A stretch of 64,000 nt of DNA from Paludibacter sp. (GTDB lineage Bacteria; Bacteroidota; Bacteroidia; Bacteroidales; Paludibacteraceae). The first letter of the stretch is position 1, and every line of letters starts with the position of its first letter. Of the stretch, positions 13,263 to 42,381 are shown in pieces. Position numbers and translations under genes: made by a program. The stretch lies in the NCBI GenBank assembly GCA_028692715.1, contig JAQUWU010000013.1:1-64000 (forward strand). Direction: 5' to 3'. Under the pieces are notes generated by a model that was given only the letters and a program-made list of their open reading frames with translations, did not search any database and was not told the origin of the DNA.

Positions 13263-16200
13263 TTACTTGGCCAGCGTTACACTCATTAAACCAACTACAA
13301 CCTCGTTTGCAGTTGTTTTCAAAACCAACTCTTTCAATTGTTTCGAGGCATTTAATGGTAGGTCTAAGACTGTTGCAGCACCACCATCAATCTGACCGGT
13401 ATTGAATTTAAAACCGGGTAGTACCGAATTGTTGTTAAACGTAAACTGTGCCGTTTTAAGATACAATCGTTGTGGACGTGGGGCATCGAATGGAAAAGCT
13501 GAATTATCCACATAGTAATCTTTTTCAATAGGATGCCATGTTTCAGGATTACGAAGCACCAGGCTGTCTTTTGACCCATCAGCATAAACAGCGTACACCG
13601 TTGCATTGGTAAAGCGCGATTGCATATAATTGGTACTACCTGCCATAAGCAAATAGGCATGACTAGCCGTTTGATTCACCGGTATACTAACTTCTTTCGG
13701 AAAATTATCCCACTGCGAAGTAAATACTATGTTTTTAGCATTATCTTCGCCCGGAGTAGCAAATGGAACGCCTTGCGGGGTTACAATCTCGTTCTTTGTT
13801 CCGGCAGTTTTGCGTAGGCCCGAATCATCGATATTGGCCGTAATTTCGGGGTGAGTCCATTCTCCAATACCGGAACTTGGCAATGCCAACGTTGGGTAAG
13901 GACAACGTGGAGTTAGGTATTTATTTTTAAAGATATTAGTCACCTTGTCATTAAAAACATTCGTCAGATCCAGCTTTTCGTAAGTGGTTGTCTTCGGATT
14001 TTCAATCGTCCAGTTTGCCACCCATTCTGTTTGCGTTTTATTGTTGCCGGCATCGACAGAAACTACATTGTAACCATTTACAAGGAACTGCGCTGGAATA
14101 ATAATACTGGCAGATTTTGCATTGCCCTCAACCTTAACTTTGGTGGTAAAAGCATTGCTTCCCGGGTTAACAGTTAAGCTAACATCCATACCCGCAGCAG
14201 TGTTATTCCTCAAATAGAAATTTAAACTGTTTGAGGGCTGCTCGTTTGGCGCTATTACTTCGATTGGTTTACTAATTTCGAAAGTAACAGCTTCCCACCA
14301 TGTCATGTTGTTTTGTTTTACTTTTACGAACAACGACCTGTGACCCATTTCACCTTTCACGGTTCCGCTAACAACACTTTCTGTTTTCTGAATATTAGCA
14401 AGTACAGCTTGTGGATCAAACACATCGGTAATCAGAGCGTTTGGAGATCCGACTGAGAATTTCTCGCCAAGAGCATACCTTGCATTTGAACTAAGCTTTG
14501 TAATGGCATTACCGGCATATTCAATTGAAATATCGAACTTCGAACCGATTTCGGTCGTAAATTCAATTTCAGGGTGATCAATGCTATTCTCGTTGTAGTT
14601 GAAGTCGATATTTTTTCCGTTTACCTTCACTGAAACAATCTTATCCAGTAGTGGGCTTGTGCAAAAATGAATTTTTACTGGCTTTGCAAAAGTGGGTATT
14701 ACGGTGTAATTAGCGGTATTTCCTACTCGTTTATACGAAAATTTAATGTCGGGAATAGTGATGGCTGCGTGATTCCATTTTTCAGGGAAACCGGGTTTAA
14801 TGGTCACCACCCCATCGAGCAGATTGGGTTTAATACCAAACAAACCTTCAACCAACGAACGTGAAGCCATACCAATGCAGTCGGCAAAATCGCGATAAGT
14901 TTCGCCACGAGCCGCATCGTAAGCCGACAATTGTACAAAATTTCCCGGACTACTCCCCAAATACATCGCATCCAATATTGAACCTTTAAACATTTTCATA
15001 GCTTCCTCGCTACGCCCAGTTTGCCAAAATGACAAGGCTGTGTGTAGATTCTCGGCAAACACCACATTGTTAACAGACCAGTTGTAAGGCATCCAATTAG
15101 TGGTGGAAACCATATAATTATCTGTTTCTTTTAGACCTTTGGCCAATACAGGTATATGAGGTATTTCGTGGTTAATATACTCTGTCATTTGGTACGCTTT
15201 AAAAAGGTCGGTTACCTCGGAGTCGATGGTATGGTAAACAGTCCAAACCCCGGCAGCAGGGTGGGTTTGCTTTAGTCCCAGGTAATCGCGGTATTCGGCA
15301 TACCAACCTTTCGTTGGATACCAAAGCAATTCATCCATGGCTGTTTTTATGTTTCGGGCTTCTGTCTCGTATGGAGTAGGATCTTCCCCTATTAATTTGG
15401 CTAAATGCGCCATATTTTTGTTGCTATAATAATTATAAGCTGAAGAATGGGTAACACCACCACCATTATATTGTAATCCATCGCTGGCCCAAATAGCGGC
15501 ATAGGCATCGTAAAGTCCATCACGCCCTACGTTAAAATTACGTTTTTCCCATTCCATGTGGCGTTTGAGTAAGGGCCATGTTTTTTTCACATACTCTAAA
15601 TCACCAGTCCACAGGTAATGACGCAAAAGGGCATCGACATATACCAAATTCATATCGTAGTGGTGTGGACGATTGTTTTCATTGGGGTTACGACAAATAT
15701 AACCATTTGAAAAAACTGCATTGCCCATTTTTTCTTCCTGACGTGATAATAGTTTTTGGGGATCAGGAACATTTGGTCCGCCTTCGGGCGAAATAACCTG
15801 CGAAGCCGCATAAGCATCAAAGTGAGTTCGGGAACGGTCGCTCCAGCCAAGTACATCACCCACGTAAGGACCACGCCATCCGTTAAGTCGCATTCTAAAA
15901 ACAATAGCTCCATGTAACCAGGCTGGAGATTCCCAGGTAGCATCAGCAGCATAACTAAGCACGCCTCCCAGATTATTTAAATAAGGGTCAGGAGTTTCAA
16001 TTACTACCCGATCGACATCTTTTAAACGTTCTTTGTTGGCACGTGCAAATATTTCAGGACTGTTGGTATATTTAAACCCAGACTCATTTCCTTTAGCAAT
16101 GATGAAATACAATGTACCATCAGCTTTCACTTTTGTGCAAAGTGCCGGTGTTTTTTCACTTGTCGACGCAAAAAAGCTAAGAGGATCTTTGGCCTTCGAA

Positions 16201-16973
16201 GCATCTGACACTTTTGTTATTCCTTTTTCGGGAAAAATACCGCACATATACTGAACCTTGCCCTTGAGCGCTTGATTCGAATTAGTATTTGATTTTTCAG
16301 CTCCAGAAACAGGATTTATGTAACGTTCAGATTCTTTCACTACATTGCCTGTAAAATAAGCTAAAACAAAGTTGTTTTTGTTTATTTCGAGAGAATTATT
16401 GGTGCAATTTTCGGGTTTCAAATAAAAACTTGATTCGGGGTCAGCTCCTAATTCACCATCTCGGTGAAATCTTTCGTTGCTTACACCACCATAAGAACAG
16501 AACACATCCAGGTTTGAGGGCGTATTTTTACCTTCAACTTTAATGACAACACCTTCTTTTTCGTAAAGAGCCAACACGGTAATGGTTAGTTTTCCCTTTC
16601 CTAACAGAGGATCGGTAACTTCATACGTCATTTTACCGGGAGAGTAACGAGCCACATATTTTGCTGCCTCCGAAACCCATTTACTCTTCTTACCTTTGGC
16701 AATACCAATTTTTATATTGCCACCCATACCGGGAAGAAACATGGCAAATTCCGGAATATCGCCAGTCTCGACCCTGAATCCGGTATTACCGCCATACAAT
16801 GCACGGTTGAACCTTCGTGCACCATTTTCAATGACAAAATCTCCACCATCCGGTCTATAACGAACTTCACGTTCCATGTTATGCCAATAAGCTCCATTGT
16901 TTTGAACCGGCTGAGATATGCCACTTGCACAAAAAGCAAGAAAAACTAAAATAAATAAATAACGAGTTATCAT
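13263..16973 (-). CDS. DUF4450-like secreted glycosidase candidate, copy 1
   Basis: A 1236-residue protein with a Sec signal peptide (about 1-20, ending SGISQP). Residues 30-330 form the N-terminal domain I match to DUF4450 (RRFNRALYG, GFRVETGDIPEF, GADPESSFYLKPENC). Residues 340-760 look like an (alpha/alpha)6 six-hairpin glycosidase barrel: GWRGPYVGDVLGWSDR near 371, IWASDGLQYNGGGVTHSS near 503, ARGETYRDFAD near 693. A beta-rich linker follows, then a C-terminal module from about 1000 with GIGEW, TPQGVPFATP and IDGGAATVLDLPL. Two paralogues lie in the window. It is followed in the operon by an epimerase, a dehydrogenase and a rhamnulokinase, so release of a deoxyhexose is a reasonable inference. 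It is clearly richer in G+C than its neighbour copy. Confidence 0.8.
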   Translation of the reverse strand: MITRYLFILVFLAFCASGISQPVQNNGAYWHNMEREVRYRPDGGDFVIENGARRFNRALYGGNTGFRVETGDIPEFAMFLPGMGGNIKIGIAKGKKSKWVSEAAKYVARYSPGKMTYEVTDPLLGKGKLTITVLALYEKEGVVIKVEGKNTPSNLDVFCSYGGVSNERFHRDGELGADPESSFYLKPENCTNNSLEINKNNFVLAYFTGNVVKESERYINPVSGAEKSNTNSNQALKGKVQYMCGIFPEKGITKVSDASKAKDPLSFFASTSEKTPALCTKVKADGTLYFIIAKGNESGFKYTNSPEIFARANKERLKDVDRVVIETPDPYLNNLGGVLSYAADATWESPAWLHGAIVFRMRLNGWRGPYVGDVLGWSDRSRTHFDAYAASQVISPEGGPNVPDPQKLLSRQEEKMGNAVFSNGYICRNPNENNRPHHYDMNLVYVDALLRHYLWTGDLEYVKKTWPLLKRHMEWEKRNFNVGRDGLYDAYAAIWASDGLQYNGGGVTHSSAYNYYSNKNMAHLAKLIGEDPTPYETEARNIKTAMDELLWYPTKGWYAEYRDYLGLKQTHPAAGVWTVYHTIDSEVTDLFKAYQMTEYINHEIPHIPVLAKGLKETDNYMVSTTNWMPYNWSVNNVVFAENLHTALSFWQTGRSEEAMKMFKGSILDAMYLGSSPGNFVQLSAYDAARGETYRDFADCIGMASRSLVEGLFGIKPNLLDGVVTIKPGFPEKWNHAAITIPDIKFSYKRVGNTANYTVIPTFAKPVKIHFCTSPLLDKIVSVKVNGKNIDFNYNENSIDHPEIEFTTEIGSKFDISIEYAGNAITKLSSNARYALGEKFSVGSPNALITDVFDPQAVLANIQKTESVVSGTVKGEMGHRSLFVKVKQNNMTWWEAVTFEISKPIEVIAPNEQPSNSLNFYLRNNTAAGMDVSLTVNPGSNAFTTKVKVEGNAKSASIIIPAQFLVNGYNVVSVDAGNNKTQTEWVANWTIENPKTTTYEKLDLTNVFNDKVTNIFKNKYLTPRCPYPTLALPSSGIGEWTHPEITANIDDSGLRKTAGTKNEIVTPQGVPFATPGEDNAKNIVFTSQWDNFPKEVSIPVNQTASHAYLLMAGSTNYMQSRFTNATVYAVYADGSKDSLVLRNPETWHPIEKDYYVDNSAFPFDAPRPQRLYLKTAQFTFNNNSVLPGFKFNTGQIDGGAATVLDLPLNASKQLKELVLKTTANEVVVGLMSVTLAK

Positions 16974-16997
16974 GAAATTGGTATTAAATTGTATAGA

Positions 16998-19900
16998 TTA
17001 TCTCTTTAATGTTGCAGCCATTAAGCCAATTACAACATCATTTGTATTCGTTGCAAGTTTTATACTTGATAAGGTTTTATCCGGATTCAATGGCAAGTCA
17101 AGCATTGAGGCTGCACCTCCATCAATTCTCACGGTATGGTTTCTCGATATCACATTGTATGAATCCAAGTGCCATTCGCCTGTTTTTAAATAAAACCTCG
17201 TTGGTTGTGGTTTAGTCAGATTAAATGCATACCCATCATGGTGGTAGTCTTGTTCTATAGGCCACCAATTGTCAGGGCTTTTTAATAGTAAAATATCTTT
17301 TGATCCATCCGTATATTGGATTTGAATTTCACCATTAATCATATGTATTTGCATATGATGCATTGACCCTGCCATTAATAGATATATGTGACTAGCTTTA
17401 CCGGAAAGTGGTATCTCAATAGAATCCGGATAATTGTCCCATTTCGATGAAAAGACAATGTTTTTTCCAATGACATCTGGTGTGTTAAATGGCACACCTT
17501 GCGGTGAAACGATATTTCCGTTTGCTTTAGCAATATTCCAAAATCCTGAATCGTCAATCTTCTCCATTTCATTATATGAACACCAATCACCAATACCTTG
17601 AATAGGAATGCTCAGGGTTGGATATGGGCAACGTGGCGAATAATACTGTTTATTGAAGATATTTGTTACTCTATCATTATAGACGTCAGATAGTTCTACG
17701 GACTCATATTTGTCCGCTTTTGTAGATTTTAAATGCCAGTTAATAACATCATCTTTGAATTGAACATTGTTTGACAGCCATTGAATATTATTACTTCCGG
17801 GAACAAGCTTATCTTTCGAGATATTTATTGTTTCAGTAGATGTGCGTGCTGGAATATTGACTGATTTTGAAAAATCACCAACAGATACCTTACCATTTAC
17901 AGATTTTGACGTATTATTTCTTGTAACAAATTGAATTTTATCTTCTTGTTGAGTTTTATCATATACAAAATCAATCGGATTTCTTAATTCAAAAGAAATT
18001 GGTAACCACCAAATCAGAGCACCTTGTTGTACTTTTGCAAAAGCAGTTCTCCACCCTATACTTCCTTGAAGTGTTGCCGATAAATTGTTGTTTGTGCTTA
18101 CATTTGAAAGAATGCCTTGAGGATCGTACACATCAATAAACCTGATTTTCTGACTTTTCAAGCTGAGGCTATCGCCCAAAGCATAGAAATAGTTCACAGT
18201 TGTTTCTTCTATTTGTTCGCCTGCCCATTCTATTTCAACTTCAAACTTTTTCTCTTTGTTTGTTTCAATAATAATCTCAGGACAACCAATAGCATTTTCG
18301 GACAAAGTCCACTTGGTGGCAACCCCGTTTACCTTCACCTCATTTATTTGATCGTACAGTGCTTTAACGTTTAATTTTAAATGAATAGGTTCCATAAATT
18401 TTGAACTAAAGTTATACGTTTCCCTCTTTCCATTCTTTTTAAATTGTAATTCAAAATCAGGTGTTTCAATACTTGCATGATTCCATGATTCTGGAAATCC
18501 GGGTCGAAAATTTATAACATGATTTATTAAATCAGGAGACACTCCAAATAGGCCTTCTATAAATGCTCTTGAAGCCATGCCTATTCCATCTGCAAAATCC
18601 CGATAAAGTTCACCTCTAAATGCGTCATAAAATGATAGTTGCCCGAAATTTCCTGGACTTGAACCTAAAAACATATTATCAATAAAAGTGCTTTTTGTAA
18701 GATTATATGCATCATCGTTTCTACCAGCTTGCCAATAAGTTAAAGCTGTGTGCAAAACTTCTGCCATTGCGACATTGTTGTTCGACCATGTATAAGGCAT
18801 CCAGTTTGTTGTAGGAATTGTATAGTATTTATTTGAATTAAGACCTGATGCAACTATTGGAATCTGTGGTATATATTTGTCTACATACCGGGTCATTTGA
18901 TAAGTTTGGAAAGGATCAGCAGCACCCTCATCTACTGAATGATAAACTGTCCACAATGCTGCAGAAGGATGCAAAAGCTGATTCCCTAGTAAATCTTTAT
19001 ACTCAGCAAACCAACCAAGTTCGGGCATCCATAACTGTTTGTTCATCGCTTTTTTTATTTTCTCAGCTTCTTTCGCATAAGGTGTAGGATCTTTTCCAAC
19101 AAGCGGTGCAATTTGAGCCGCTATTTTATTGGCTCTATAGTTATAAGCAGAGGAGTGTGTTACACCCCCGCCATTATATTGAAGAGCATCGCTTGCCCAA
19201 ATACAGCAATATGCATCGTATAGTCCATCGTCATTTCCATCAAAGTTTCTTTTTTCCCAAGCCAGATGTCTGGTTAAGACAGGCCAGCTTTTTTTCAAAA
19301 ATTCAATATCTCCAGTCCAATTGAAATGAGATAGTAATTCTGATATAAACACAATGTTCATATCATAATGATGAGGCATATTTCCAGCTTTTGGATATCT
19401 ACCAATATATCCATCAGTATAAAGGGCTGTTCCAACTTCTTCTTTTTGTCTTGCAAGATTTGTTGCCGTATCAGGTACACTTATTCCAGATGCAGGTTCA
19501 GTGAATTGAGCAGCAAAATAACCTTGAAAATGGGTTCGTGCTCTGTCATGCCAGCCCAACCAATCTCCAGCATACGCACCTCTCCAGCCATTTAATGCCA
19601 TTCGCCAAGCAATTGCGCCATGAAGAAACGATTTCCCATCCCATATAGCATCCGCGGCTGTACTTAACGTTGAAGCAACAGAATTTATATATTCATCAGG
19701 TGTATTAATTTTTATTCTGTCGGCAATTGACTTACGTTTATTTTCAGCTTGATTATATACATTAGATAAATTCTCGTTAGCGGATATTTTTTTCGATTTT
19801 GGATCAACAAGCATTATGTAATTAGTTAGCTCATTTAGTGAAATAGTCCCAGCAATTGCAGGCGTGTTCGATTTTCCAGTCTTGGTTAATTTTAATGGAG

Positions 19901-20687
19901 TAGACTGTTTTGAGGCATTTACAATATGTATGTTGAAGCTTTTGCTAACAATTCCACGTATTTGTTTTTTTTCATTCAAACGTGTTGAGTTTAATTCCTC
20001 TTTGTTTGCCTTGTAATTTATTTCATATGTTTCATTATCGCTTAAACTACGACCAATACCGTAGTGTAATGTAAAAGCATTGTTTGAAATTTTATATTCA
20101 TTCGTAGTACAATTCTCAGGTTTTAGGTAAAAACTCGACTCAGGATCAGCTCCTAAATCACCATCTCGAGAGAATCGTTGGTAACTTGCACCTCCAAATA
20201 CCCAAAAAAGTTCCAGATCTGCAGGTATGTTTTCAGAGTTGATTTTAATAATGCAACCATCGGCATCTGCCATAGCTAATATAGAAAGATTTAACTTTCC
20301 ACTCCCAAGCAACTGATCTGTAATTTCATAGCTCATATTCCCGGCTTCATATCGAGCTATAATATTGTCCGCTTTTATCAACCACTTTGAGATCTTTGAT
20401 TTAATCAAGCCAAAACGTATCGTACCACCCAATTGAGGCATATATAATGAAAATTCAGGTAAATCTCCAGTCTCTACTCTAAAACCAGTATGTGTACCAT
20501 ACAGAGCTCTGTTGAAACGTTTGGTTCCATTTACAATTGTGAAACCATTTTTATCCGGTTTATATCGTAACTCTCGTTGTTGTTTATACCAGGGTTTAAA
20601 ATTTTGCAATTGTGCTACTGTACACTGAAGGGATAAAAAAAGCATGAAAAATGCAATGAAAAATTTTTTTCTATTAAATCTACACAT
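16998..20687 (-). CDS. DUF4450-like secreted glycosidase candidate, copy 2
   Basis: A 1229-residue protein with a signal peptide (about 1-25, ending LQCTVAQ). Its domain order matches copy 1: DUF4450-like region (KRFNRALYGTHTGFRVETGD), six-hairpin barrel with GWRGAYAGDWLGWHDR near 373, WASDALQYNGGGVTHSS near 501 and RGELYRDFADGIGMASR near 700, a beta-rich linker and the C-terminal IDGGAASMLDLPL module. It is the first gene of the operon, 24 bases upstream of copy 1, and is driven from the divergent control region at 20.7-21.0 kb. Protein similarity to copy 1 is obvious throughout, but it is visibly more AT-rich, so this is not a recent tandem duplication. Substrate unknown; an alpha-linked deoxyhexose such as rhamnose is the best guess. 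Confidence 0.8.
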   Translation of the reverse strand: MCRFNRKKFFIAFFMLFLSLQCTVAQLQNFKPWYKQQRELRYKPDKNGFTIVNGTKRFNRALYGTHTGFRVETGDLPEFSLYMPQLGGTIRFGLIKSKISKWLIKADNIIARYEAGNMSYEITDQLLGSGKLNLSILAMADADGCIIKINSENIPADLELFWVFGGASYQRFSRDGDLGADPESSFYLKPENCTTNEYKISNNAFTLHYGIGRSLSDNETYEINYKANKEELNSTRLNEKKQIRGIVSKSFNIHIVNASKQSTPLKLTKTGKSNTPAIAGTISLNELTNYIMLVDPKSKKISANENLSNVYNQAENKRKSIADRIKINTPDEYINSVASTLSTAADAIWDGKSFLHGAIAWRMALNGWRGAYAGDWLGWHDRARTHFQGYFAAQFTEPASGISVPDTATNLARQKEEVGTALYTDGYIGRYPKAGNMPHHYDMNIVFISELLSHFNWTGDIEFLKKSWPVLTRHLAWEKRNFDGNDDGLYDAYCCIWASDALQYNGGGVTHSSAYNYRANKIAAQIAPLVGKDPTPYAKEAEKIKKAMNKQLWMPELGWFAEYKDLLGNQLLHPSAALWTVYHSVDEGAADPFQTYQMTRYVDKYIPQIPIVASGLNSNKYYTIPTTNWMPYTWSNNNVAMAEVLHTALTYWQAGRNDDAYNLTKSTFIDNMFLGSSPGNFGQLSFYDAFRGELYRDFADGIGMASRAFIEGLFGVSPDLINHVINFRPGFPESWNHASIETPDFELQFKKNGKRETYNFSSKFMEPIHLKLNVKALYDQINEVKVNGVATKWTLSENAIGCPEIIIETNKEKKFEVEIEWAGEQIEETTVNYFYALGDSLSLKSQKIRFIDVYDPQGILSNVSTNNNLSATLQGSIGWRTAFAKVQQGALIWWLPISFELRNPIDFVYDKTQQEDKIQFVTRNNTSKSVNGKVSVGDFSKSVNIPARTSTETINISKDKLVPGSNNIQWLSNNVQFKDDVINWHLKSTKADKYESVELSDVYNDRVTNIFNKQYYSPRCPYPTLSIPIQGIGDWCSYNEMEKIDDSGFWNIAKANGNIVSPQGVPFNTPDVIGKNIVFSSKWDNYPDSIEIPLSGKASHIYLLMAGSMHHMQIHMINGEIQIQYTDGSKDILLLKSPDNWWPIEQDYHHDGYAFNLTKPQPTRFYLKTGEWHLDSYNVISRNHTVRIDGGAASMLDLPLNPDKTLSSIKLATNTNDVVIGLMAATLKR

Positions 20688-21002: not shown

Positions 21003-24000
21003 ATGAGAAACAAAATCACAAATCAAACAAAAAACAACAATTATCTTTTGAAAAAGACACTTTGGATTGTAGTTTTTGTATTAACTGTACAAATAGTTTT
21101 TGCACAGTCACTTACAGTGAAAGGTAAAGTAAAAGACACACAAGGTGCCCCAATTCTCGGAGCAACAATTTTAGTTCTGGGAACAACAACAGGAACATTA
21201 TCTGATTTCGAAGGTAATTTTACAATTACAGTCCCAAATTCAAAATCTGTTATAAAATGTTCTTATATTGGAATGGAACCACAAACATTTGTAGTGGGTA
21301 ATCAATTATTTCCTGTTATAACATTAAATGAATCTGCTTTTGCGTTAAGTGAAGTGGTTGCCATTGGATATGGAGCTGCCAAAAAAGGAAGTGTTACCGG
21401 TTCAATTGTACAGGTCAATAGTAGACAGTTAGAGAATCGTTCTGTTTTAAGAGTTGATCAGGCATTAGCAGGTCAAATGGCTGGTGTTAGTGTAAAAGCA
21501 ACCACTGGAGATCTAGGAGCACCACTTCAAATATCTATACGTGGAAAAACATCTGTTTCTGCAACAAATGAACCATTGTATGTTGTTGATGGTGTTCCAA
21601 CGACGGATATTTCAGATTTGATAATAAGTGATGTTGAGTCAATCAATGTTTTAAAGGATGCATCTTCATCTGCCATTTATGGTTCAAGAGGGGCAAATGG
21701 AGTTGTAATTATAACTACTAAAAGTGGAAAAAGCGGGAAAACAAAATTTACTTTTGGTAGTTACTTTGGAGTACAAAGTCTTGAGAAGAAAATTGATTTA
21801 CTTAGCTCACAGGAATGGATAAACCTTGACAAAGAGGTTATAGATGCCCGATGGGTAAAAAGAGGAAAAGAGCTAGGAAAAGATTGGCAAGCGACAGATT
21901 CTTACGAATATCGATTGTCGCAACTTGGAAGTTTTAATAAAAGTTACATGTATGATCCTTTGTGGCAATACGGCACAGATAGTCTTGCTCTAATAGATTG
22001 GCAAGATGAATTGTATAGAGTTGCACCAATTCAAGAATATCAATTGTCAGCTTCCGGTGGTAGTAAAAACATAAATTACCACATATCTGGGACTTATCTA
22101 AAACAAGATGGTATAATAAAATATACTAGTTATAACAAAATTAATTTTAGATCGAATTTAAGTGTAAAATTCAATGATAAGTTATCTCTTGATTTTACGC
22201 TGAGTCCAACAAGTTCTGTTAATAACGGTGGTTTAACAACAGGGAAGGACATGATGGTTCACAGGGCACTTTCAATGGCACCTGTTGCTGATAAAAAATA
22301 TGGGACAGAAACTGGTGTATATCCAAATACCACATATTTATTTGCAGGTTCATCGTGTAGCCCCGTTGCATATTTACGCGAAATTACATATCGTCAGGAA
22401 GATTCGAGAATGCGTACTAATCTAGCACTAAATTACGAAATATTTAAAGGATTAAAAGCAAGATTTTCCGGATCAATGGATGATCGAAATATAATCTTAC
22501 ATCGATATATGCCTACTAAAGTTCAATCTAGTAATGCTTCTGCTACTGAAGGTCAGCTAAGTACAGCCTTATTAACATCTCAACGGATTAGTAATAATGT
22601 TTTTGAGTCAACTTTAAATTACAATACTAGTTTAAGTAAGCATAATCTTGATTTTCTAGCAGGTTATTCCATCGAAGATAAACATAGTGATAGAGCAACT
22701 CAAAAACATACGCAATTTAACAATGACATTCTAACTACTTTTTCTTTGAATAATTCGACAGTGAGTGAAAGTAGTTATGAGCTTTATGATGATAGATTGA
22801 TGTCCTATTTTGCACGTGGACAATATGATTATGACAACAGATATTTGCTAAATATGAGTCTTCGACGTGATGGATCTTCACGATTTGGAAAAGATAATCT
22901 ATGGGGTACATTTCCATCTTTTTCGGTTGGTTGGAGAGTTAGTAATGAAAAATTCATGTCCAAGATTGAATTTGTTAGCAGCATGAAGTTAAGATATAGC
23001 TTTGGTATGACAGGAAATAATAGTATTCCATTATATAGATCATTCGCAGAATTAGCTACCAGTAATTACTCATTTGGAAATCAAATAGCATATGGTTATG
23101 CAAATGGAACTCTGGAAAATACAGATCTTGGTTGGGAAAAAACAAACTCTTCAAACTTCGGAATAGACTTGGGTGTATTGAAAAACAGATTGTTTTTATC
23201 GTTTGATTATTATTATAAAAAAACGAGCAATATGTTATATTATGTACCCGTAGCTGCTGTAACAGGATTTACTAATGGCTGGCAAAATATAGGCTCAATG
23301 CAAAACAATGGATATGAATTAGAGTTAACAACCCATAATTTGAATGGAAAATTTAAATGGGACACCAATATAAACTTTTCTCATAATTCAAATAAAGTAT
23401 TAAGTCTTGGTCCTGACAACACTCCGATATTGAGTGGCTTTGAAAATAAAACAACAATACTTAAGGTTGGATTACCCATGTATTCTTATTATATGTACGA
23501 TGCCATTGGTGTTTACATGAACCAAGCAGACTTAGATAACTCTCCTAAAATGTCAACTAATATTGTTGGTGATATTAAGTATAGAGATGCAAACGAAGAT
23601 GGGATAATAAATGAAAATGATAAAACAATTGTAGGAAAACCTGAACCCGATTTTTTCTGGGGGTTGACTAATACTTTTAGGTATAAGAATTTTGATTTAT
23701 CGATATTATTGCAAGGTCAGCAAGGTGGTAAAATTTATGGTATTATTGGACGTGCATATGATAATTCAAATGGTGAAACTTCAATAAATCGTCCTGCACA
23801 CTGGAAAAACAGATGGCAATCAGAAGAAAACCCCGGTAACGGAATAATTCCGAGAATTGATGGAACCACAAGTGGATTATATGACTCCAGATGGCTTTAT
23901 GATGCAACATATTGGAAAGTAAAAAATGTGACATTAACATATAATCTACCTAAAAACACTATCAAAAATATAACAGCTGCTCAAATTTATTTTTCTGGTG

Positions 24001-24128
24001 ACAACCTGTTTATGCGCGATCATTATGAAATTGGATACTCTCCTGAAGCTGAAAATAATGCAGGAGGAGACTACGGTGGATATCCGCTTGCACGAGTATT
24101 AACTTTAGGTGTTAAAATGACATTTTAA
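21003..24128 (+). CDS. SusC-like TonB-dependent outer-membrane transporter
   Basis: A 1041-residue SusC/RagA receptor. Signal peptide (about 1-34, ending QIVFAQ), N-terminal carboxypeptidase-D-like regulatory domain (KGKVKDTQGAPILGATI), the signature VVAIGYGAAKKGSVTGSI, a plug domain with QISIRGKTSVSATNEPLYVVDG and SAIYGSRGANGVVIITTK, then a 22-strand barrel ending in ARVLTLGVKMTF with the C-terminal aromatic residue. It imports oligosaccharides, by position those made by the PL4 lyase encoded two genes downstream. The SusD partner follows after 12 bases. Confidence 0.95.
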   Translation: MRNKITNQTKNNNYLLKKTLWIVVFVLTVQIVFAQSLTVKGKVKDTQGAPILGATILVLGTTTGTLSDFEGNFTITVPNSKSVIKCSYIGMEPQTFVVGNQLFPVITLNESAFALSEVVAIGYGAAKKGSVTGSIVQVNSRQLENRSVLRVDQALAGQMAGVSVKATTGDLGAPLQISIRGKTSVSATNEPLYVVDGVPTTDISDLIISDVESINVLKDASSSAIYGSRGANGVVIITTKSGKSGKTKFTFGSYFGVQSLEKKIDLLSSQEWINLDKEVIDARWVKRGKELGKDWQATDSYEYRLSQLGSFNKSYMYDPLWQYGTDSLALIDWQDELYRVAPIQEYQLSASGGSKNINYHISGTYLKQDGIIKYTSYNKINFRSNLSVKFNDKLSLDFTLSPTSSVNNGGLTTGKDMMVHRALSMAPVADKKYGTETGVYPNTTYLFAGSSCSPVAYLREITYRQEDSRMRTNLALNYEIFKGLKARFSGSMDDRNIILHRYMPTKVQSSNASATEGQLSTALLTSQRISNNVFESTLNYNTSLSKHNLDFLAGYSIEDKHSDRATQKHTQFNNDILTTFSLNNSTVSESSYELYDDRLMSYFARGQYDYDNRYLLNMSLRRDGSSRFGKDNLWGTFPSFSVGWRVSNEKFMSKIEFVSSMKLRYSFGMTGNNSIPLYRSFAELATSNYSFGNQIAYGYANGTLENTDLGWEKTNSSNFGIDLGVLKNRLFLSFDYYYKKTSNMLYYVPVAAVTGFTNGWQNIGSMQNNGYELELTTHNLNGKFKWDTNINFSHNSNKVLSLGPDNTPILSGFENKTTILKVGLPMYSYYMYDAIGVYMNQADLDNSPKMSTNIVGDIKYRDANEDGIINENDKTIVGKPEPDFFWGLTNTFRYKNFDLSILLQGQQGGKIYGIIGRAYDNSNGETSINRPAHWKNRWQSEENPGNGIIPRIDGTTSGLYDSRWLYDATYWKVKNVTLTYNLPKNTIKNITAAQIYFSGDNLFMRDHYEIGYSPEAENNAGGDYGGYPLARVLTLGVKMTF

Positions 24129-24140
24129 ACAAATAGAAAA

Positions 24141-25610
24141 ATGAAAAATATATATATAATAATTTTAGTGATTTCAACCATATTCACATCATGTTCAGAT
24201 GATTTTCTATTAACACAGAACCCAAATAAAATAGATAGTGAAAATTACTACCAAACAGAAAGTCAAATAAATGCTGCGGTTAATGGCACATATGGTGTAT
24301 TAAGACAATACCCTGAATTATATTTCTTTTATTTAAGCGAAGGTAGGTCAAATAACTATTATTCCGGCACATCAAATGCTCAACGTGATTTAGTTGATAT
24401 TTCAAATTATAACGAAACCTCAGAATTGACATCTTTAGAAGAAGCATGGGAACTGGGTTATTCATTAATTGCCAAAACAAATAAAGTTTTATCTGTAATT
24501 GACGATGTAAGCTTTAAATCAGAAGGGACAAAAACTATAGACAAAGCTCAGATGAGATTTTTGCGCGCTTTTGGTCATTTTGAACTTTTGCGTGTATTTG
24601 GAAATATTCCAATTATAGAAAATGTAATTTCACCAGTTCAAGCAGGTAAAATTGGAAGATCCGACAGAATTAAAGTATTGGAATTTATCGAAAGTGATTT
24701 GAAATATGCTATTGATAACTTACCGGAAAGTTATACTTCAACTGAACTTGGAAAAGTTACAAAACAGGCAGCAATGGCATATTTAGCCAAAGTTTATCTG
24801 ACATGGGGACAATACCCGATATATAATGCAAATAAAATCGATAATGCCATATCATTATTAACCGAAATTACAGGTAAAGCTAGTTATATGACTTGGGCTA
24901 CAAAATTTGAAGACATTTTTAAAAGTGCGAGCGATAATAAATATTGTATGTTTGAAATTCAATTTTTCTCTGGTTCGAGTGGACTTGGTGCAACATTTCC
25001 TTCTGAATTATTACCAAGTCAAATGAAAGAATTTCCATATACTGGTGGAGTTCCAAGATTATCACCTAGTGAAGATATATTAAAACAATTTGACAAAAAA
25101 ATAGATTTACGATTTGATGCAACATTTGATACAATATACACTAACAGTTATTATGTTAAGATTAAGGAGAATATAACTGCTAAATGGTTTGAAACTGGGT
25201 TTAAGCTTCTAAATAGAAATGATTGGCCTCAAAATTTTCCACTTATCAGACCTGCAGAAGTTAATCTAATGTATGCAGAAGCTTTATTAGTGAAAAATGA
25301 TTTACCAACAACAGAAGCTATTAATTCGCTAAATAAGACACGTTTACGTGCAGGATTAGAATATTATACACCTGCTACAAAAGAAGAATTTGAACAAGAA
25401 TTACAGAACGAATACCGAAGGGAGTTTGTGGCTGAAGGTGTTTATTGGCATTATTTAGTAAGATCAGGAAAAGCTGTAGATGTTATGAATTCCTGGTTTA
25501 CAAATACAAGTCAAAATATTACTATTGATGAAAAACGGTTAATTTATCCGGTACCGTATCTTCAAATGTCGATATACCCCGGACTTTATACGCAAAACCC
25601 GGGTTATTGA
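24141..25610 (+). CDS. SusD-like surface glycan-binding lipoprotein
   Basis: A 489-residue RagB/SusD protein. The lipoprotein signal has the lipobox IFTSCS (Cys about 18), followed by the family start DDFLLTQNPNKIDSENYYQ, a TPR-rich helical core (RFLRAFGHFELLRVFGNIPI) and the usual C-terminal NEYRREFVAEGVYWHYLVR and YPVPYLQMSIYPGLYTQNPGY. It caps the SusC barrel and captures glycan at the cell surface. Slightly short for the family but complete. Confidence 0.95.
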   Translation: MKNIYIIILVISTIFTSCSDDFLLTQNPNKIDSENYYQTESQINAAVNGTYGVLRQYPELYFFYLSEGRSNNYYSGTSNAQRDLVDISNYNETSELTSLEEAWELGYSLIAKTNKVLSVIDDVSFKSEGTKTIDKAQMRFLRAFGHFELLRVFGNIPIIENVISPVQAGKIGRSDRIKVLEFIESDLKYAIDNLPESYTSTELGKVTKQAAMAYLAKVYLTWGQYPIYNANKIDNAISLLTEITGKASYMTWATKFEDIFKSASDNKYCMFEIQFFSGSSGLGATFPSELLPSQMKEFPYTGGVPRLSPSEDILKQFDKKIDLRFDATFDTIYTNSYYVKIKENITAKWFETGFKLLNRNDWPQNFPLIRPAEVNLMYAEALLVKNDLPTTEAINSLNKTRLRAGLEYYTPATKEEFEQELQNEYRREFVAEGVYWHYLVRSGKAVDVMNSWFTNTSQNITIDEKRLIYPVPYLQMSIYPGLYTQNPGY

Positions 25611-31044: not shown

Positions 31045-32373
31045 TTATCTATTGTTTCCAATTTTATCATATTGCTTTTCAGCACTAATTTCATTATACC
31101 TTGGAGCATCAATCATTTCCACTAATGCTCGCAAAACAGGTCCTTCGCCCATTGGATCGTTTTCCTGAGTAGGACGATTATAATAATATTTTATCGAAGG
31201 CATAATACCCGTTCCTACACAGATAGCTGTCACATCGCCCTGAGGAGTAATTTTGGACATAATCCCTTTCAAACCTTGCTCCGCAACATAAATGAAATCT
31301 GGATGTATCCAACCCTCTTTCACTCCACGAGCCAAACCAAATACAAACATTGAAGATCCAGTAATTTCATCGTATGAATCAGGCTTATCCAACAATTGAT
31401 GCCAAAGACCACTAGCACCTTGATAGCGTGCAACACCACTTGCTTGTTCTTTGAAATTGTCAATCACTGCTTGTCGCATTGGATGGTCTTTTGGCATTCG
31501 TGCTAACAAGTCAGCCTGAGCCATGAAAATCCAACCGTTCGCACGACTCCAATGAGCCACTCCATGTTCTTTCGTGTCTGTATGAAAGCAGTGGTAATAA
31601 ATTTGTTTTTCCTTGCACCATAAATATTTGTTATATTTTAGTATCTGATTGGCTGCATCTGTGAAGTATTTATTATCTCCGGTAAATTGGCCCATTCGAC
31701 TTAAAAATGAAATAGCCATAAATGAGTCGTCTGCCCAAATTGTATTCTCATGAGGCCAAATTCGAGCTATGGTTCCATCAGCTAACCTAGGTTCATTCTC
31801 ATTTAAATGTTCAGCCGTTTGATTGATGTAATTTAAAAAAGCTGGATTTGGGTATTTTCGCTGAAGATCAATAAGACATGCACCCATTGGTCCATTATCG
31901 TCCAGACGTTTTCCTCTAAAATACATATGCCAACTAACATTCCTTACTGCGTTCCAACCTCCTTTGAGAAAAGCTTGATCATACATTTTTTTGAAAAAAA
32001 ATAAATTACCTTCATTTAATATAAAATTTATATTCTTCAATACATATTCTTCGTATTGTTTGACTTTTATTTTATTGCCAAGTTCCATCAATGCTATGTT
32101 AGTTACACCATTTGTGTAATGCCATTGATTATACTTCGATTGCACCTGCACATCAGACGACAAAGGTAGATCTTTTACAGATTTATATGTTTCTGCAGTT
32201 TTTTTATTTTCAAAAAGATAGGTCGTCGAATTGATAATTCGATTGGCAATTAATTTAGCCACTTCCTCAGTAGACATTTTGTTTTGAGCAAATGAAGTAC
32301 TAATTCCAATATAAAAAATTGTCAGTAAAGTACCATATTTCAAATTTATTCTATTTTTTTTATTTTTCATCAT
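31045..32373 (-). CDS. GH105 unsaturated rhamnogalacturonyl hydrolase
   Basis: A 442-residue (alpha/alpha)6-barrel enzyme of the YteR/YesR type, with a signal peptide (about 1-29, ending TSFAQ), so probably periplasmic. Motifs: QWHYTNGVTNIALMEL, the acidic pair in TIWADDSFMAISFLSRMG, HWSRANGWIFMAQADLL, LWHQLLDKPDSYDEITGSS and the C-terminal MGEGPVLRALVEM. By family knowledge it removes the unsaturated galacturonyl residue left by rhamnogalacturonan lyases, so it acts right after PL4 and exposes rhamnose at the non-reducing end. A -7-like TAACTTTG on the minus strand at 32595-32588 could give a leader of about 200 bases. Confidence 0.92.
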   Translation of the reverse strand: MMKNKKNRINLKYGTLLTIFYIGISTSFAQNKMSTEEVAKLIANRIINSTTYLFENKKTAETYKSVKDLPLSSDVQVQSKYNQWHYTNGVTNIALMELGNKIKVKQYEEYVLKNINFILNEGNLFFFKKMYDQAFLKGGWNAVRNVSWHMYFRGKRLDDNGPMGACLIDLQRKYPNPAFLNYINQTAEHLNENEPRLADGTIARIWPHENTIWADDSFMAISFLSRMGQFTGDNKYFTDAANQILKYNKYLWCKEKQIYYHCFHTDTKEHGVAHWSRANGWIFMAQADLLARMPKDHPMRQAVIDNFKEQASGVARYQGASGLWHQLLDKPDSYDEITGSSMFVFGLARGVKEGWIHPDFIYVAEQGLKGIMSKITPQGDVTAICVGTGIMPSIKYYYNRPTQENDPMGEGPVLRALVEMIDAPRYNEISAEKQYDKIGNNR

Positions 32374-33846: not shown

Positions 33847-33934
33847 GAAATATTTGATATTGAAAATAGAAACATCCGAAAAGATAATTAATTGGAAATT
33901 TCTATAATCTGTTGACATTTAACTATAACTATCT

Positions 33935-35320: not shown

Positions 35321-35418
35321 TGGTTAGATGTAATATTTATAAAATAATTTAGTATAAGTCAAATTGATTAACTCATGAATCTGATATTTTCAAAGACTTT
35401 AATCTGACAAACAGCTCA

Positions 35419-35426
35419 CAAAGCTA
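35419..35426 (-). promoter_or_regulatory. Candidate -7 box for fucP
   Basis: TAGCTTTG on the minus strand matches TAnnTTTG; a TTTG lies about 25 bases further upstream, a slightly long spacing. The predicted transcript would start near 35412, giving a leader of about 90 bases. Confidence 0.35.
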
Positions 35427-35436
35427 AAATATGGTA

Positions 35437-35474
35437 AGTCTGAAGAAAGTTCAAAAATAGAACTTCTTCAGACT
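35437..35474 (-). terminator. Hairpin terminator after aldo/keto reductase
   Basis: A 15-16 base near-perfect stem, AGTCTGAAGAAAGTTC with GAACTTCTTCAGACT (one bulged base) around a 7-base loop, begins 6 bases after the aldo/keto reductase stop and separates it from fucP. The T-tract is weak, but the stem is long. Confidence 0.65.
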
Positions 35475-35479
35475 ACAAT

Positions 35480-36484: not shown

Positions 36485-36575
36485 ATAAAATATATTTTTA
36501 AAATATTAGAACCAAGAGCCAAGATTAATACTCAGCTATGGTTCATATGTAAATAGTAAATGATTAACTAGTAAA

Positions 36576-37637
36576 TTATTTGATTTCTTCGTCGAAAACG
36601 ATAGCTACTTTACCACATTTACCATCAGCCATTAAAGAATAAGCCTCAGGAGCATCATCTAATTTAAAGCGGTGAGTAACTAATTCTTCTGGGTGAATTC
36701 CCCAACGAACAATACGTTCAACTAATTCTTCCATTCTCCAAATTGCAGTTACCCATGAGCCATAGATAGTTTTTTGATCGTGGATAATATCCGGACTTGG
36801 ATTGAACTCAACAGTACCACCTTCGCCGATCATAACCATTTTACCCCATTGGCGAGTAGCGCGGATACAAAGTTGACGAGCTAAAGTATGACCAGAGCAG
36901 TCTACTGTTTTCTCAAATCCCATACCGTTTGTAACAGCCATAACTTTCTCCAAAGTATCAGGACCAGAAACAAATACTTCATCAGCCAAGCCAAGATCCA
37001 TAGCGATTTGACAACGTTCAGCAACAGTATCAACACCAATAACTTTTTCAGCTCCCATGGCTTTAGCAAGCATTAAAGCAGCCAAACCAACAGGGCCTAA
37101 ACCAGTAACCAGAACAGCATCGTTACCACTGATTCCAATTTTTTCCAAGCCTTCGTAAACAGTTCCAAAACCACAGGCAATTTGAGCACCATCTGTATAT
37201 GTTAGCGAATCAGGAAGTAATACCAAATCTTTTTCTTCGGCTATCATATATTCCGACATACCTCCATCACGTTGCCATCCATAAGCAGCGCGTGATTCGC
37301 TTTTACACGAAATCATATATCCACGACGACAATCGTTGCAACATCCGCAACCTGAAATATGATAAACTACTACACGGTCGCCCTCTTTGAATCGTTTCAT
37401 GCCCGGACCACAAGCAATTATTTGACCAGCAGGCTCATGACCACATATTTTATTTTGATACCCTTCAGGACCTTTACCTAAGTGTTCGCGATAAATAGCA
37501 CGAATATCACTACCACAAATTGTAGATGATTTAATTTTTAACAACACTTCACCATGACCTGGTGTTGGAAATTCTACCTCCTTAAAAACAACTGTGCTGT
37601 TTCCTGGTAAGTAAGCTGCTTTAGATTTGTAAGCCAT
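36576..37637 (-). CDS. Zinc-dependent medium-chain alcohol/polyol dehydrogenase
   Basis: A 353-residue MDR protein. The catalytic zinc site includes Cys in STICGSDIRAIY and GHEPAGQI. The structural zinc site is the four-cysteine cluster SGCGCCNDCRRGYMISCKS. The Rossmann motif GLGPVGLAALMLAKAMGAEK binds NAD(P). Family members oxidise alcohols and polyols (sorbitol, threonine, galactitol or L-arabitol dehydrogenases). It lies 42 bases downstream of fucU in one operon with the aldo/keto reductase, which suggests a shared sugar substrate. Confidence 0.88.
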   Translation of the reverse strand: MAYKSKAAYLPGNSTVVFKEVEFPTPGHGEVLLKIKSSTICGSDIRAIYREHLGKGPEGYQNKICGHEPAGQIIACGPGMKRFKEGDRVVVYHISGCGCCNDCRRGYMISCKSESRAAYGWQRDGGMSEYMIAEEKDLVLLPDSLTYTDGAQIACGFGTVYEGLEKIGISGNDAVLVTGLGPVGLAALMLAKAMGAEKVIGVDTVAERCQIAMDLGLADEVFVSGPDTLEKVMAVTNGMGFEKTVDCSGHTLARQLCIRATRQWGKMVMIGEGGTVEFNPSPDIIHDQKTIYGSWVTAIWRMEELVERIVRWGIHPEELVTHRFKLDDAPEAYSLMADGKCGKVAIVFDEEIK

Positions 37638-39237: not shown

Positions 39238-42200
39238 TTATTTGGTCAATGTAATTGCCATCAAACCAATTATCAATTCGTTAGCTGTACTTTTCAATTG
39301 TAGCGAATGTAGTTCTTTGTTTTTATCAAGCGGAATATTTAGTATTACGCCTGCTCCACCATCAATAACTCTACCGTAGACTTCTGAAGGGTCAATCTTT
39401 AGATCTTTTTCCAAATTCCGGCTCACAATACCCGATTTGAATGCTACACGGTACGGACGAGGAGTATTTAATTGAAATGCCAGGCCATCGGCATAAAAAT
39501 CTTGCTCAATCGGACACCATGTATCAGGGTTAATTAATTGAAGTACTTCATTAGAACCATCCTTATATCTCACAGTTACCGTGCCGTTTTCAAAATTACA
39601 TTGCATCGGGTTGGTTGTTCCAGCCATAAGTAAAATAGCGTTTTGTGCTTTTCCAGTTAATGGTACTGAAATCGAATCGGGATAATTGTCCCACAAAGTA
39701 GTGAAAGCAATGTTGTTTCCCTCAGGAATACGGAAAGGTAATCCAAATGGTGTTGTAAATGTTTGATTTATGGTAGATTTTCGAATCCCAGCATCATCAA
39801 TGACATATGAAAGCAGTGGTTTACACCATTCACCGATTCCTTGCCATGGGGTTTGCAATGTGGTGTAAGGAGAGCGGGGAGACATATATTTATTTCTAAA
39901 AATATTTCTAACAGATGCATTTAAGACACTATCCATGTTCACCAACTCGAATTTAATATTCTCTTTTGTGAAATCCGGCAAAAGTGAATTCTTCGCAAAT
40001 TGATTGTCATTCTTTGTCTTTTTAATATTATCGGGTTGCCACCAGGTCATTTGCCCCTGTGACAGTTTTACAAAACCGTCTCTTTTAGCTGTTTCTTTTG
40101 CTTTAGAGGTTTGCAAAGCATTACCTTCCCATTCTATTTTTATGTCAAGTTGTTCATTGCTTCCACACAATATTTCGACCAGCGGAAACTCGATATTTTC
40201 AGTCAAAGCCCATGTAGCAGCTTTCCCATTTATTTTAAGCGATATTATTTTTTCGTTAGTTGCCGGTACTTTTAGTATAATTTCAGCCTTTTCAGCAAAT
40301 TTATTTTTTATCAAATAGCTATCTGTTAATCTTTTACGTTTGAAATTAAATTCTATATAAGGCGATGAAAATTCGGCAAAATCCCACTCTCGGGGCAAGC
40401 CTGGACGAATAATAACTTTTGAGTTGAGCAAATCTGGCGCAATACCGAAAAGCCCTTGTACCAAAGCGCGTGAATACATTCCAATGGGGTCTCCAAAGTC
40501 GCGGTATGTTTCGCCACGAGCTGCATCGTAAAAGCTTATTTGCCCAACATTTCCTGGCGAACGACCGAGATACATACCATCAAAAATAGCACTTTTGAAA
40601 ATGCGGTAAGCTTCGTCAGGACGCCCCGCCTGCCAAAATGCAAGCGAAGTATGAGCTACTTCGGCAAAAGCAACATTATTGAGCGACCAGTAATAAGGTT
40701 GCCAGTTGGTTGTAGAGAGCATATCATAGTCACCGTCAATGCCTTTTGCTAAAACAGGAATATGCGGAATTTCGCGGTCGACATAGCTGGTTGCAAGGTA
40801 TTGCTGGAAAATATCGCCAATTTCGGAGTCGATACTATGATAAACAGTCCAAAGTGCTGCCGAAGGGTGAATCTTTTTGTTACCCATAAAATCGACATAT
40901 TCGGCCCAACAGCCAGTTTCAGGGAGCCACAATTTTGCATTTAGTGCATTTAATATTTTTTTAGCTTCGTTTTGATAGGGTGTAGGGTCTTCGTTATTTA
41001 GTTCAGCAATGCGAGCAATAATTTTGTTTGCACGGTAGTTGTACGCCGACGAATGGGTTACTCCACCGCTATTGTATTGTAGCGCATCACTTGCCCAAAT
41101 GCAACAGTAAGCATCGTAAAGGCCATCGTTATCGGGGTCGAAGTTGTGTTTTTCCCACTCGATATGACGTTTCAATAAAGGGAACATTTTGCGTGCATAG
41201 TCTAAATCTCCAGTCCAGTTAAGATGCCACAATAGCTCGTCAACATATACCAGATTCATATCGTAGTGGTGCATCTGAGCATTATTATTGGGTGTTCGGC
41301 AAATATAACCGGTACTATACATCTGAGTTCCCCATTTTTTTTCGGCACGGGCAAGGTGCAAAGCAGTATCTTGCGAAGGGTGCTGAATGATTGGCTCTAC
41401 AGAAGTAACTTGCGAAGCAGCATAAGCATCGTAATGCTTACGTGCACGGTCAGTATATCCCATAAAGTCGCCGATGTAGGCAGCACGCCATCCGGCAAGT
41501 TGTACACGCCAGCCAATAGCCCCGTGCAACCACGAGTTATTGCCATCCCAAACCCCGTTGGCGGCAGTGCTTAATGCCCCGGCAACAGTATTGAAATATT
41601 TATCTGGTGTTTTAATTGAGATTTGTTCCGATATTTTTTTAGCAACATTATCTGCTTTTTGATAAATAGCGTCCCCTTGTGCATTGTCAATTTGCTGCAA
41701 ATCAGCTCCGTTTAATAGCAAATAAACGGTTTTGCCAGTGAAGTTAAGTTCTATATCTTTAAGCTTTTTACCAGCTTCCAAAACATCAGGAGCATTAACT
41801 CCCATTTCACCAAGGTGCTTTAATTTGGTTGCTTTAATTTTGGAAAGCACTGCCAACAACCTAAAGTTCTGTGAGTTTTTTTCCATTTCTACCTTCCAAA
41901 TAGCACCGTCTTTATCGGCTAATGCTAGTGCTGAAATTAGGATCTTTGCATTACCGAAACTTTTGTCTTTAACTTCATAGTTGCGTTTCCCTGCTGAATA
42001 CCATGATTTACAATAACCAACAGAATCGAGGGGTAACTTTTTATCACCCGTAACAGCCACAAATGCTATGTTTGTACTGTTATCGGCATTTTTGTAGTAA
42101 TATGCAAACACAGGACGGTCGCTTGTTTCGAGCCGGGAATCGTCATAAGTTCCGTATAATGAACGTGTAAAACGATTATTCCCATTTACACATACAAATG

Positions 42201-42381
42201 CATTACCCTCTGGTAAATACTGAAAATCCCGCACTGCTTTACGATTTGCAGGAACGTTGAAAGATTCGCGAGCAAGGGCATTTTTATTGGAGGAAGTAAC
42301 TATCTGAGCACTCAAACTAATAAACGACAATTGAAGAATTACAATTATCATTGATAATATGAAAAATTTACTTAAATGCAT
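39238..42381 (-). CDS. DUF4450-like secreted glycosidase candidate, copy 3 (shorter form)
   Basis: A 1047-residue paralogue of the two proteins at 13-21 kb. The start at 42381 is chosen because the signal peptide (MHLSKFFILSMIIVILQ..., cleaved near LSAQ) begins there. It keeps the DUF4450-like region (NRFTRSLYGTYDDSRLETSD, shortened by about 60-70 residues), the six-hairpin barrel (GWRAAYIGDFMGYTDR near 305, WASDALQYNSGGVTHSS near 434, ARGETYRDFGDPIGMYSR) and the C-terminal module (TPFGLPF, WDNYPDSI, IDGGAGVILNIPL). It lacks most of the beta-rich linker of about 150-170 residues found in copies 1 and 2. It ends the GH28/GH2/GH43 cluster, so it probably works on the same pectic material. Confidence 0.8.
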   Translation of the reverse strand: MHLSKFFILSMIIVILQLSFISLSAQIVTSSNKNALARESFNVPANRKAVRDFQYLPEGNAFVCVNGNNRFTRSLYGTYDDSRLETSDRPVFAYYYKNADNSTNIAFVAVTGDKKLPLDSVGYCKSWYSAGKRNYEVKDKSFGNAKILISALALADKDGAIWKVEMEKNSQNFRLLAVLSKIKATKLKHLGEMGVNAPDVLEAGKKLKDIELNFTGKTVYLLLNGADLQQIDNAQGDAIYQKADNVAKKISEQISIKTPDKYFNTVAGALSTAANGVWDGNNSWLHGAIGWRVQLAGWRAAYIGDFMGYTDRARKHYDAYAASQVTSVEPIIQHPSQDTALHLARAEKKWGTQMYSTGYICRTPNNNAQMHHYDMNLVYVDELLWHLNWTGDLDYARKMFPLLKRHIEWEKHNFDPDNDGLYDAYCCIWASDALQYNSGGVTHSSAYNYRANKIIARIAELNNEDPTPYQNEAKKILNALNAKLWLPETGCWAEYVDFMGNKKIHPSAALWTVYHSIDSEIGDIFQQYLATSYVDREIPHIPVLAKGIDGDYDMLSTTNWQPYYWSLNNVAFAEVAHTSLAFWQAGRPDEAYRIFKSAIFDGMYLGRSPGNVGQISFYDAARGETYRDFGDPIGMYSRALVQGLFGIAPDLLNSKVIIRPGLPREWDFAEFSSPYIEFNFKRKRLTDSYLIKNKFAEKAEIILKVPATNEKIISLKINGKAATWALTENIEFPLVEILCGSNEQLDIKIEWEGNALQTSKAKETAKRDGFVKLSQGQMTWWQPDNIKKTKNDNQFAKNSLLPDFTKENIKFELVNMDSVLNASVRNIFRNKYMSPRSPYTTLQTPWQGIGEWCKPLLSYVIDDAGIRKSTINQTFTTPFGLPFRIPEGNNIAFTTLWDNYPDSISVPLTGKAQNAILLMAGTTNPMQCNFENGTVTVRYKDGSNEVLQLINPDTWCPIEQDFYADGLAFQLNTPRPYRVAFKSGIVSRNLEKDLKIDPSEVYGRVIDGGAGVILNIPLDKNKELHSLQLKSTANELIIGLMAITLTK

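Follow-up and report, generated by a model that had tools for sequence, protein, structure and literature searches.

DUF4450 proteins of rhamnogalacturonan I loci in Paludibacter and other bacteria are probable glycosidases and often occur beside a second unassigned enzyme

Rhamnogalacturonan I (RG-I) is a pectin common in the diet and in soil, whose breakdown by the Bacteroidota is regarded as largely mapped. One described system is the locus BT4145-83, which one study lists for rhamnogalacturonan I and in which deletion of BT4178 left growth at 58.5% of wild type (PMC3243724). Here we consider three large proteins, P0001, P0002, and P0003, that carry the DUF4450 domain (PF14614) and are encoded in a stretch of 64,000 nucleotides from Paludibacter sp. 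(assembly GCA_028692715.1, contig JAQUWU010000013.1, positions 1 to 64,000; hereafter the window). A reading made from the sequence alone had proposed that they release a deoxyhexose, either by supplying an alpha-L-rhamnosidase step that the window lacks or by acting on another deoxyhexosyl linkage. Judged by their sequences, their genomic surroundings, and a predicted fold, they are very probably glycosidases of RG-I loci, and the family is accompanied by a second unassigned enzyme. Among the openly licensed papers searched (CC0, CC BY, CC BY-SA), none names DUF4450 or PF14614, and among the matches listed for RG-I no title or abstract start deals with the family.

The nearest described relative by sequence is the PDB entry 4e0e, a "putative uncharacterized protein" of 178 residues that a profile of 57 homologues matched with its DUF4450 part only (E 9.3e-6). 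We take it to be the structural-genomics DUF4450 domain of B. thetaiotaomicron BT_4147 (gene name unconfirmed), from the RG-I locus BT4145-4183; unlike the proteins described here, it consists of the N-terminal domain only, and no function is given for it. The same profile reached the exo-beta-D-arabinofuranosidase 8ic6 (E 0.00099) and the chitobiose phosphorylase 1v7v (E 0.049), and a PDB search with P0001 by itself gave nothing below 0.1 (best match E 0.11).

Several glycoside hydrolase (GH) families resemble the rest of the protein. The GH94 disaccharide phosphorylases provide the top Foldseek matches, share the order of sandwich, barrel, and beta domain, and have an aligned catalytic Asp, whereas the DUF4450 proteins have no Glyco_hydro_94 match and are apparently exported. 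The GH78 alpha-L-rhamnosidases head the VIA-align list with a low root mean square deviation and match in a profile comparison over 104 columns, yet the DUF4450 proteins have neither a Bac_rhamnosid6H match nor the D.P.R.E motif. GH116 and MGH1-like (GH63) enzymes are found by weak Pfam matches and among the fold matches of both programs, but of the 356 positions in the MGH1 model only about 50 are matched. MGH1-like_GH scores 28.7, 27.7, and 24.8 bits for P0001, P0002, and P0003 against a cut-off of 27, over about 50 residues only; GH116 (PF04685; E 1.7e-5) reaches 20.2 bits in P0001 and 24.7 in P0002, short of its cut-off of 26.3, and is not listed for P0003. Finally, the BT4145-like GH106 alpha-L-rhamnosidases share RG-I loci with DUF4450 but have no counterpart in its sequence: none of Bac_rhamnosid6H, Glyco_hydro_106, and Glyco_hydro_94 is listed by Pfam for the three proteins at E up to 1. 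An NCBIfam scan of the three gave no family at or above its cut-off, so that the confident match to a characterised CAZy family, which the sequence-only reading had named as evidence against its proposal, did not occur in either database. The proteins and their parts are as follows.

13263..16973, minus strand: P0001, DUF4450 protein of 1236 amino acids, predicted exported (signal peptide by eye, Pfam, alignment, AlphaFold model)
16038..16736, minus strand: DUF4450 domain of P0001, residues 80-312 (Pfam E 1.8e-55)
14841..15971, minus strand: (alpha/alpha)6 barrel of P0001, residues ~335-711 (model helices, fold matches, invariance)
13266..14006, minus strand: C-terminal beta module of P0001, residues ~990-1236, containing IDGGA (alignment, model, invariance)
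16998..20687, minus strand: P0002, DUF4450 protein of 1229 amino acids, 24 bp from P0001 (Pfam, alignment)
39238..42381, minus strand: P0003, DUF4450 protein of 1047 amino acids with half of DUF4450 and no middle beta region, catalytic motifs retained (Pfam, alignment)

The three paralogues read from the sequence are confirmed as open reading frames (ORFs) at these positions, on the minus strand, which had gone unmentioned. P0002 and P0003 are 46% and 45% identical to P0001, and all three begin with a hydrophobic stretch that we took by eye for a signal peptide. The proposed DUF4450-like N terminus holds in that all three pass the gathering cut-off of 27 bits (188.1, 199.1, and 36.1 bits; E 1.8e-55, 7.6e-59, and 6.1e-9, in numerical order of the proteins), and it holds by half for P0003, which covers positions 7-103 of the 212 in PF14614, the first half only, and in the alignment of the three proteins also lacks the middle beta region.

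To place the family, contigs from 84,980 species were scanned, and the best 80 of 576 relatives provide the loci used below. Neighbors were clustered from ORFs of at least 150 amino acids in flanks of up to 10 kb, each cluster being named by one representative (Pfam, NCBIfam). GH28 accompanies DUF4450 in 34/80 loci, GH106 in 23/80, the GH88/GH105 cluster of the type found in the window in 21/80, PL11 in 18/80, a second GH88-family cluster in 15/80, GH2 in 13/80, GDSL esterases in 10/80, and PL22 in 8/80; GH115, GH43, and GH2 clusters occur in some loci. The GH106 representative resembles BT4145 (855 bits, short of the cut-off of 1300) and the GH2 cluster resembles BT4156 without reaching the cut-off of that model. 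The density of GH106 in 99 genomes of the phylum predicts about 0.1 for these loci, against 23 of 80 observed. Eight clusters that we chose as pectin-related (GH28, GH106, the two GH88-family clusters, PL11, GDSL, PL22, and a pectate-lyase-like cluster, with GH2 and the U718 protein described below excluded) are represented at least once in 55 of the 80 loci, which bears out the proposed tie to RG-I degradation. In three genomes, stretches of 40-80 kb each hold GH106, GH28, PL11, GH88, GH2, DUF4450, and U718 together (best BLASTP match to the clusters). The DUF4450 family thus belongs to RG-I loci, many of them with GH106, GH28, GH88/GH105-family, and PL11 members. One of the loci, typically Bacteroidota-like, lies in a record named Thalassovita (L025, Pseudomonadota), probably by a binning error.

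The same surveys bear on the supposed rhamnosidase gap. The window's genome has one GH106 gene on contig C12 and another on C16, where it adjoins GH28. It also encodes an L-rhamnose isomerase and, on other contigs, five matches to Bac_rhamnosid6H (PF17389, GH78-type), of which one has an internal stop and one is short. DUF4450 was found in 6/148 genomes of the phylum and in 5/99 of those surveyed further; GH106 is present in 13 of the 99, including 5/5 DUF4450 genomes, and in four of these five it lies on the same contig, ~9 to 50 kb from DUF4450, the window's genome being the one with other contigs. As a control, GH94 occurs in 27/99 genomes and in 2/5 DUF4450 genomes, one of the two matches being weak and below cut-off. 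With two GH106 genes and five GH78-type matches elsewhere in its genome, and GH106 in all five DUF4450 genomes and in 23 of the loci, the argument that these proteins fill a missing alpha-L-rhamnosidase step is rejected. DUF4450 thus occurs in genomes that already possess GH106, which argues against its replacing that enzyme but leaves room for a second rhamnosidase with another specificity. Genes for rhamnose catabolism (RhaT, a RhaD fusion, RhaI or RhaA, and a kinase, one kinase cluster having no NCBIfam match) do lie near DUF4450 in 10 of the 80 loci, which supports that part of the sequence-only reading, whereas a missing deoxyhexose-releasing step finds no support.

What is new here is a second, unassigned enzyme that co-occurs with DUF4450. 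U718, a protein of 718 amino acids with no Pfam or NCBIfam match and a model resembling GH65 and GH95 (folded from 34 of the 40 U718 rows), lies within the stretch covered in 40/80 loci and adjoins DUF4450 in 29 of the 80. Examples are L055:7762-9918 and contig C45:4454-6499 of genome G000 (L094). Among the 99 genomes, U718 and DUF4450 are found in exactly the same five. In 24 genomes of the same class, the probability of the co-occurrence with DUF4450, kinship ignored, is 2.4e-5 for U718 and 0.003 for GH106. Sequence kinship between the two proteins was considered and rejected, the profile comparison giving 0.4% probability; their common ground is the general barrel class only. Four loci of Flavobacterium type that carry both (L042, L044, L045, and L048) also contain a xylose isomerase gene and what looks by eye like a sulfatase gene, which may point to substrates that bear xylose or sulfate.

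The predicted structure supports a glycosidase. The AlphaFold model of P0001, folded from 57 sequences (P0001-P0003 and 54 of the 80 loci), is confident (predicted local distance difference test 88, predicted TM score 0.90), has a glycosidase-type fold, and agrees with the six-hairpin barrel proposed earlier. It combines an (alpha/alpha)6 barrel with a C-terminal beta domain, a GH78 trait, and is comparably close to GH78, GH116, and GH94 in Foldseek and VIA-align. Neither GH127 nor GH142 was recognised among the 50 matches listed, which carries no weight against them, and Pfam gave no match to either.

Conservation was counted, in P0001 numbering, over 84 sequences comprising the 80 loci, P0001-P0003, and a fourth DUF4450 copy from contig C37 of the same genome. 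Invariant columns are densest in the barrel (62/377), compared with 6/298 in the N part, 7/278 in the middle part, and 18/247 in the C-terminal module. D440, E476, W495-A496-S497-D498, E560, D584, E641, D686, Y693-R694-D695-F696, D698, and R705 are identical in 84/84 and E691 in 83/84, so that the loss of acidic residues across homologues, also named in advance as counting against a glycosidase, was not seen in these sequences. The blocks GWR..Y.GD..G..DR.R, WASD.LQYN.GGVTHSS, and RGE.YRDF.D occur in all three proteins as described, and many of their residues are invariant, whereas others, such as D379 (76/84), H509 (78/84), and G690 (78/84), vary. The C-terminal module does not end with IDGGA as had been supposed: in P0001 this motif stands 37 residues ahead of the C terminus, and its D is kept in 51/84. 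Two sites are proposed to be catalytic.

15480..15482, minus strand: codon of D498 in the WASD motif, proposed general acid (84/84; aligned with the D of GH94 WND)
14880..14918, minus strand: residues 686-698 (YDA.RGE.YRDF.D), proposed catalytic-base site (conservation; loop before the last barrel helix in the model)

The D of WND is presumably the general acid of GH94. In a profile comparison with GH94 (48.5% probability, 403 columns), D498 stands opposite this residue, and a weak HMMER alignment to 1v7v agrees with the placement. The GH94 profile was made from 7 of 8 loci (L104, with a frame of 2906 amino acids, was excluded), five of the seven having WND.LN, and the GH78 profile from four of the five sequences in the window's genome, the copy with the internal stop being excluded; global-mode alignments spanned 3 and 13 columns only and were uninformative. 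GH78 enzymes have as their catalytic signature a D.P.R.E block with a general-acid Glu. Because this block is found in 0/84 sequences, GH78-type catalysis looks unlikely in DUF4450 proteins, although another set of residues might still support rhamnosidase activity. Nor does the stretch from residue 335 to residue 439 of P0001 contain a Glu that is invariant in the 84 sequences. Hydrolysis would probably proceed by single displacement with inversion, the 686-698 loop providing an acidic residue as the base and D498 serving as the general acid.

Taken together, the glycosidase part of the sequence-only reading is upheld by the predicted fold and the conserved acidic residues, while the supposed supply of a missing deoxyhexose-releasing step is unsupported. 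We incline, by a narrow preference over doubt, to the view that P0001-P0003 are exported exo-glycosidases of an uncharacterised family (DUF4450 plus (alpha/alpha)6 barrel) acting in the periplasm on RG-I oligosaccharides, alongside the GH106 rhamnosidase rather than in its place. That DUF4450 and the co-occurring U718 remove a residue left behind by GH106 and GH28 has, in our estimate, a little under an even chance.

One way to fill in this explanation is that the proteins are uronidases or side-chain beta-glycosidases (for galacturonic or glucuronic acid, galactose, or xylose) that trim RG-I branches. Beta-acting barrel relatives (the subthreshold GH116 match, 8ic6, 1v7v, and GH94) and the GH115, GH43, and GH2 clusters of some loci would suit such a role; galacturonic acid and galactose are already covered by GH28 and GH2, and no residue points to any one sugar, which leaves this a tentative option, realised perhaps one time in three. 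Somewhat less probable still, and on balance unlikely, is that they are alpha-L-rhamnosidases of a new family, set apart from GH106 by their aglycone preference or by how well they tolerate branches in RG-I, in essence the sequence-only proposal less its gap argument. The presence of GH106 in all five DUF4450 genomes and the missing D.P.R.E motif speak against it, and the rhamnose genes nearby are no specific pointer, since rhamnose is part of any RG-I locus. The likeness to GH94, whose phosphorylases lead the Foldseek matches and align their acid with D498, raises the alternative of inverting phosphorylases or of lyases; we consider this improbable, since the signal peptides seen by eye would direct the proteins out of the cytoplasm and phosphorolysis is rare there, several invariant acids are available as base candidates, and no polysaccharide lyase was recognised among the 50 matches listed. 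A binding or structural role without catalysis, to which the large beta regions at both ends and the conserved C-terminal module might point, is the least credible of all, given that invariance peaks in the barrel and includes many acids.

Several observations nevertheless weigh against the exo-glycosidase reading that we prefer. No activity is known for the DUF4450 family. The 80 loci are related, so their counts are not independent, and within the stretch covered 25 of them have no pectin-related cluster (several being on short contigs), 57 have no GH106, and 40 have no U718. Statistically, GH78 gives a stronger profile comparison than GH94 (probability 94.5% vs 48.5%), if over 104 columns only. 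The Glu that serves as base in GH63 and GH78 has no obvious counterpart here; because of this, and because GH94 enzymes are phosphorylases, the assignment of the base to the 686-698 loop is a guess. Lastly, the P0001-P0002 locus has no GH106 or GH28 in the window, which leaves room for a rhamnosidase role there.

The neighbors of the three genes in the window are listed here.

4062-4781: resolvase-family gene, upstream
9531..11048, minus strand: rhamnulokinase-like FGGY kinase, downstream in the P0002-P0001 run (TIGR02627 494 bits, cut-off 528)
11159..12460, minus strand: mannitol-1-phosphate dehydrogenase-like protein, probably starting within the ORF as called (NCBIfam scores all below cut-off)
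12324..13214, minus strand: sugar epimerase/isomerase-like TIM barrel (NCBIfam scores below cut-off)
21003..25610, plus strand: SusC-like and SusD-like pair, oriented away from the P0002 run
25662..27647, plus strand: PL4 rhamnogalacturonan lyase with a type IX secretion system (T9SS) sorting tail
29538-30884: DDE transposase gene, separating the PL4 locus from the GH88/GH105 run
31045..32373, minus strand: GH88/GH105-family protein, probable unsaturated uronidase (PF07470 E 1.2e-67)
32692-37637: run of genes for a DUF6786 protein, a FucP-type transporter, an aldo-keto reductase, and a zinc dehydrogenase
42472..44091, minus strand: GH43, adjoining P0003
44175..47192, minus strand: GH2
47410..48792, minus strand: GH28, equivalog of the BT4153 rhamnogalacturonidase (NF049899 681 bits, cut-off 650)
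48812..63993, minus strand: two SusC/SusD-like pairs and three fasciclin-domain proteins of the P0003 locus

On the minus strand P0002 is followed by P0001 and then by the epimerase-like, mannitol-phosphate dehydrogenase-like, and rhamnulokinase-like genes; P0001 is separated from its two neighbors by 24 bp and 48 bp, a spacing that fits co-transcription of the run. A second locus comprises P0003 together with GH43, GH2, GH28, and the SusC/SusD-like and fasciclin-domain genes. The PL4 lyase, the GH88/GH105-family protein, and the rhamnulokinase-like kinase (the last below its cut-off) are present as the sequence-only reading had them, and its remark that the window holds no GH78 or GH106 agrees with the lack of a match in the 32 ORFs scanned, which are all those of at least 150 amino acids except the antisense ORF 61628-62167. 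The dehydrogenase and epimerase-like ORFs (11159-13214), between the kinase and P0001, overlap as called, and because of this overlap the dehydrogenase start is probably further in. Neither these two nor the 32692-37637 run, possibly a pathway for an unusual sugar, has relatives in the 80 DUF4450 loci at E 1e-8 (among ORFs of at least 150 amino acids for the run). One or two SusC/SusD pairs together with fasciclin-like proteins recur near DUF4450, at 48812-63993 of the window, at L095:1-10792, and in L023, L027, L036, L040, L047, L054, L056, L064, and L069; the Fasciclin assignment was confirmed by Pfam for the window proteins and one L054 protein only.

In a tree of the 84 sequences, P0001 groups with L005 and L083 (support 99), and P0002 with L059 (100) and, at 93, with the L031/L039/L009/L013 group. 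P0003 joins Dysgonomonas and its relatives (92), on a long branch (0.97) whose place is unsure. With the three copies in separate groups, a recent tandem duplication is rejected, and the tandem pair P0001/P0002 would be either old or assembled from different sources. The other five DUF4450 genomes among the 148 have one copy apiece, which makes the four copies in the window's genome unusual.

If these proteins are what we propose, a conserved pair of unassigned enzymes in RG-I loci would represent a step missing from the breakdown map. DUF4450, with its GH94/GH116/GH78-like barrel, and U718, with its GH65/GH95-like one, may even be two new glycoside hydrolase families, a co-inherited pair that would attack, one after the other, an RG-I motif whose breakdown the described enzymes (GH106, GH28, GH105, and PL11) leave incomplete; we hold this to be a serious possibility, if one that falls somewhat short of even chances. 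The paired occurrence makes the missing step directly testable with two proteins and one substrate, and the paired reading, if true, would bring to light a linkage or branch in RG-I that is not yet charted.

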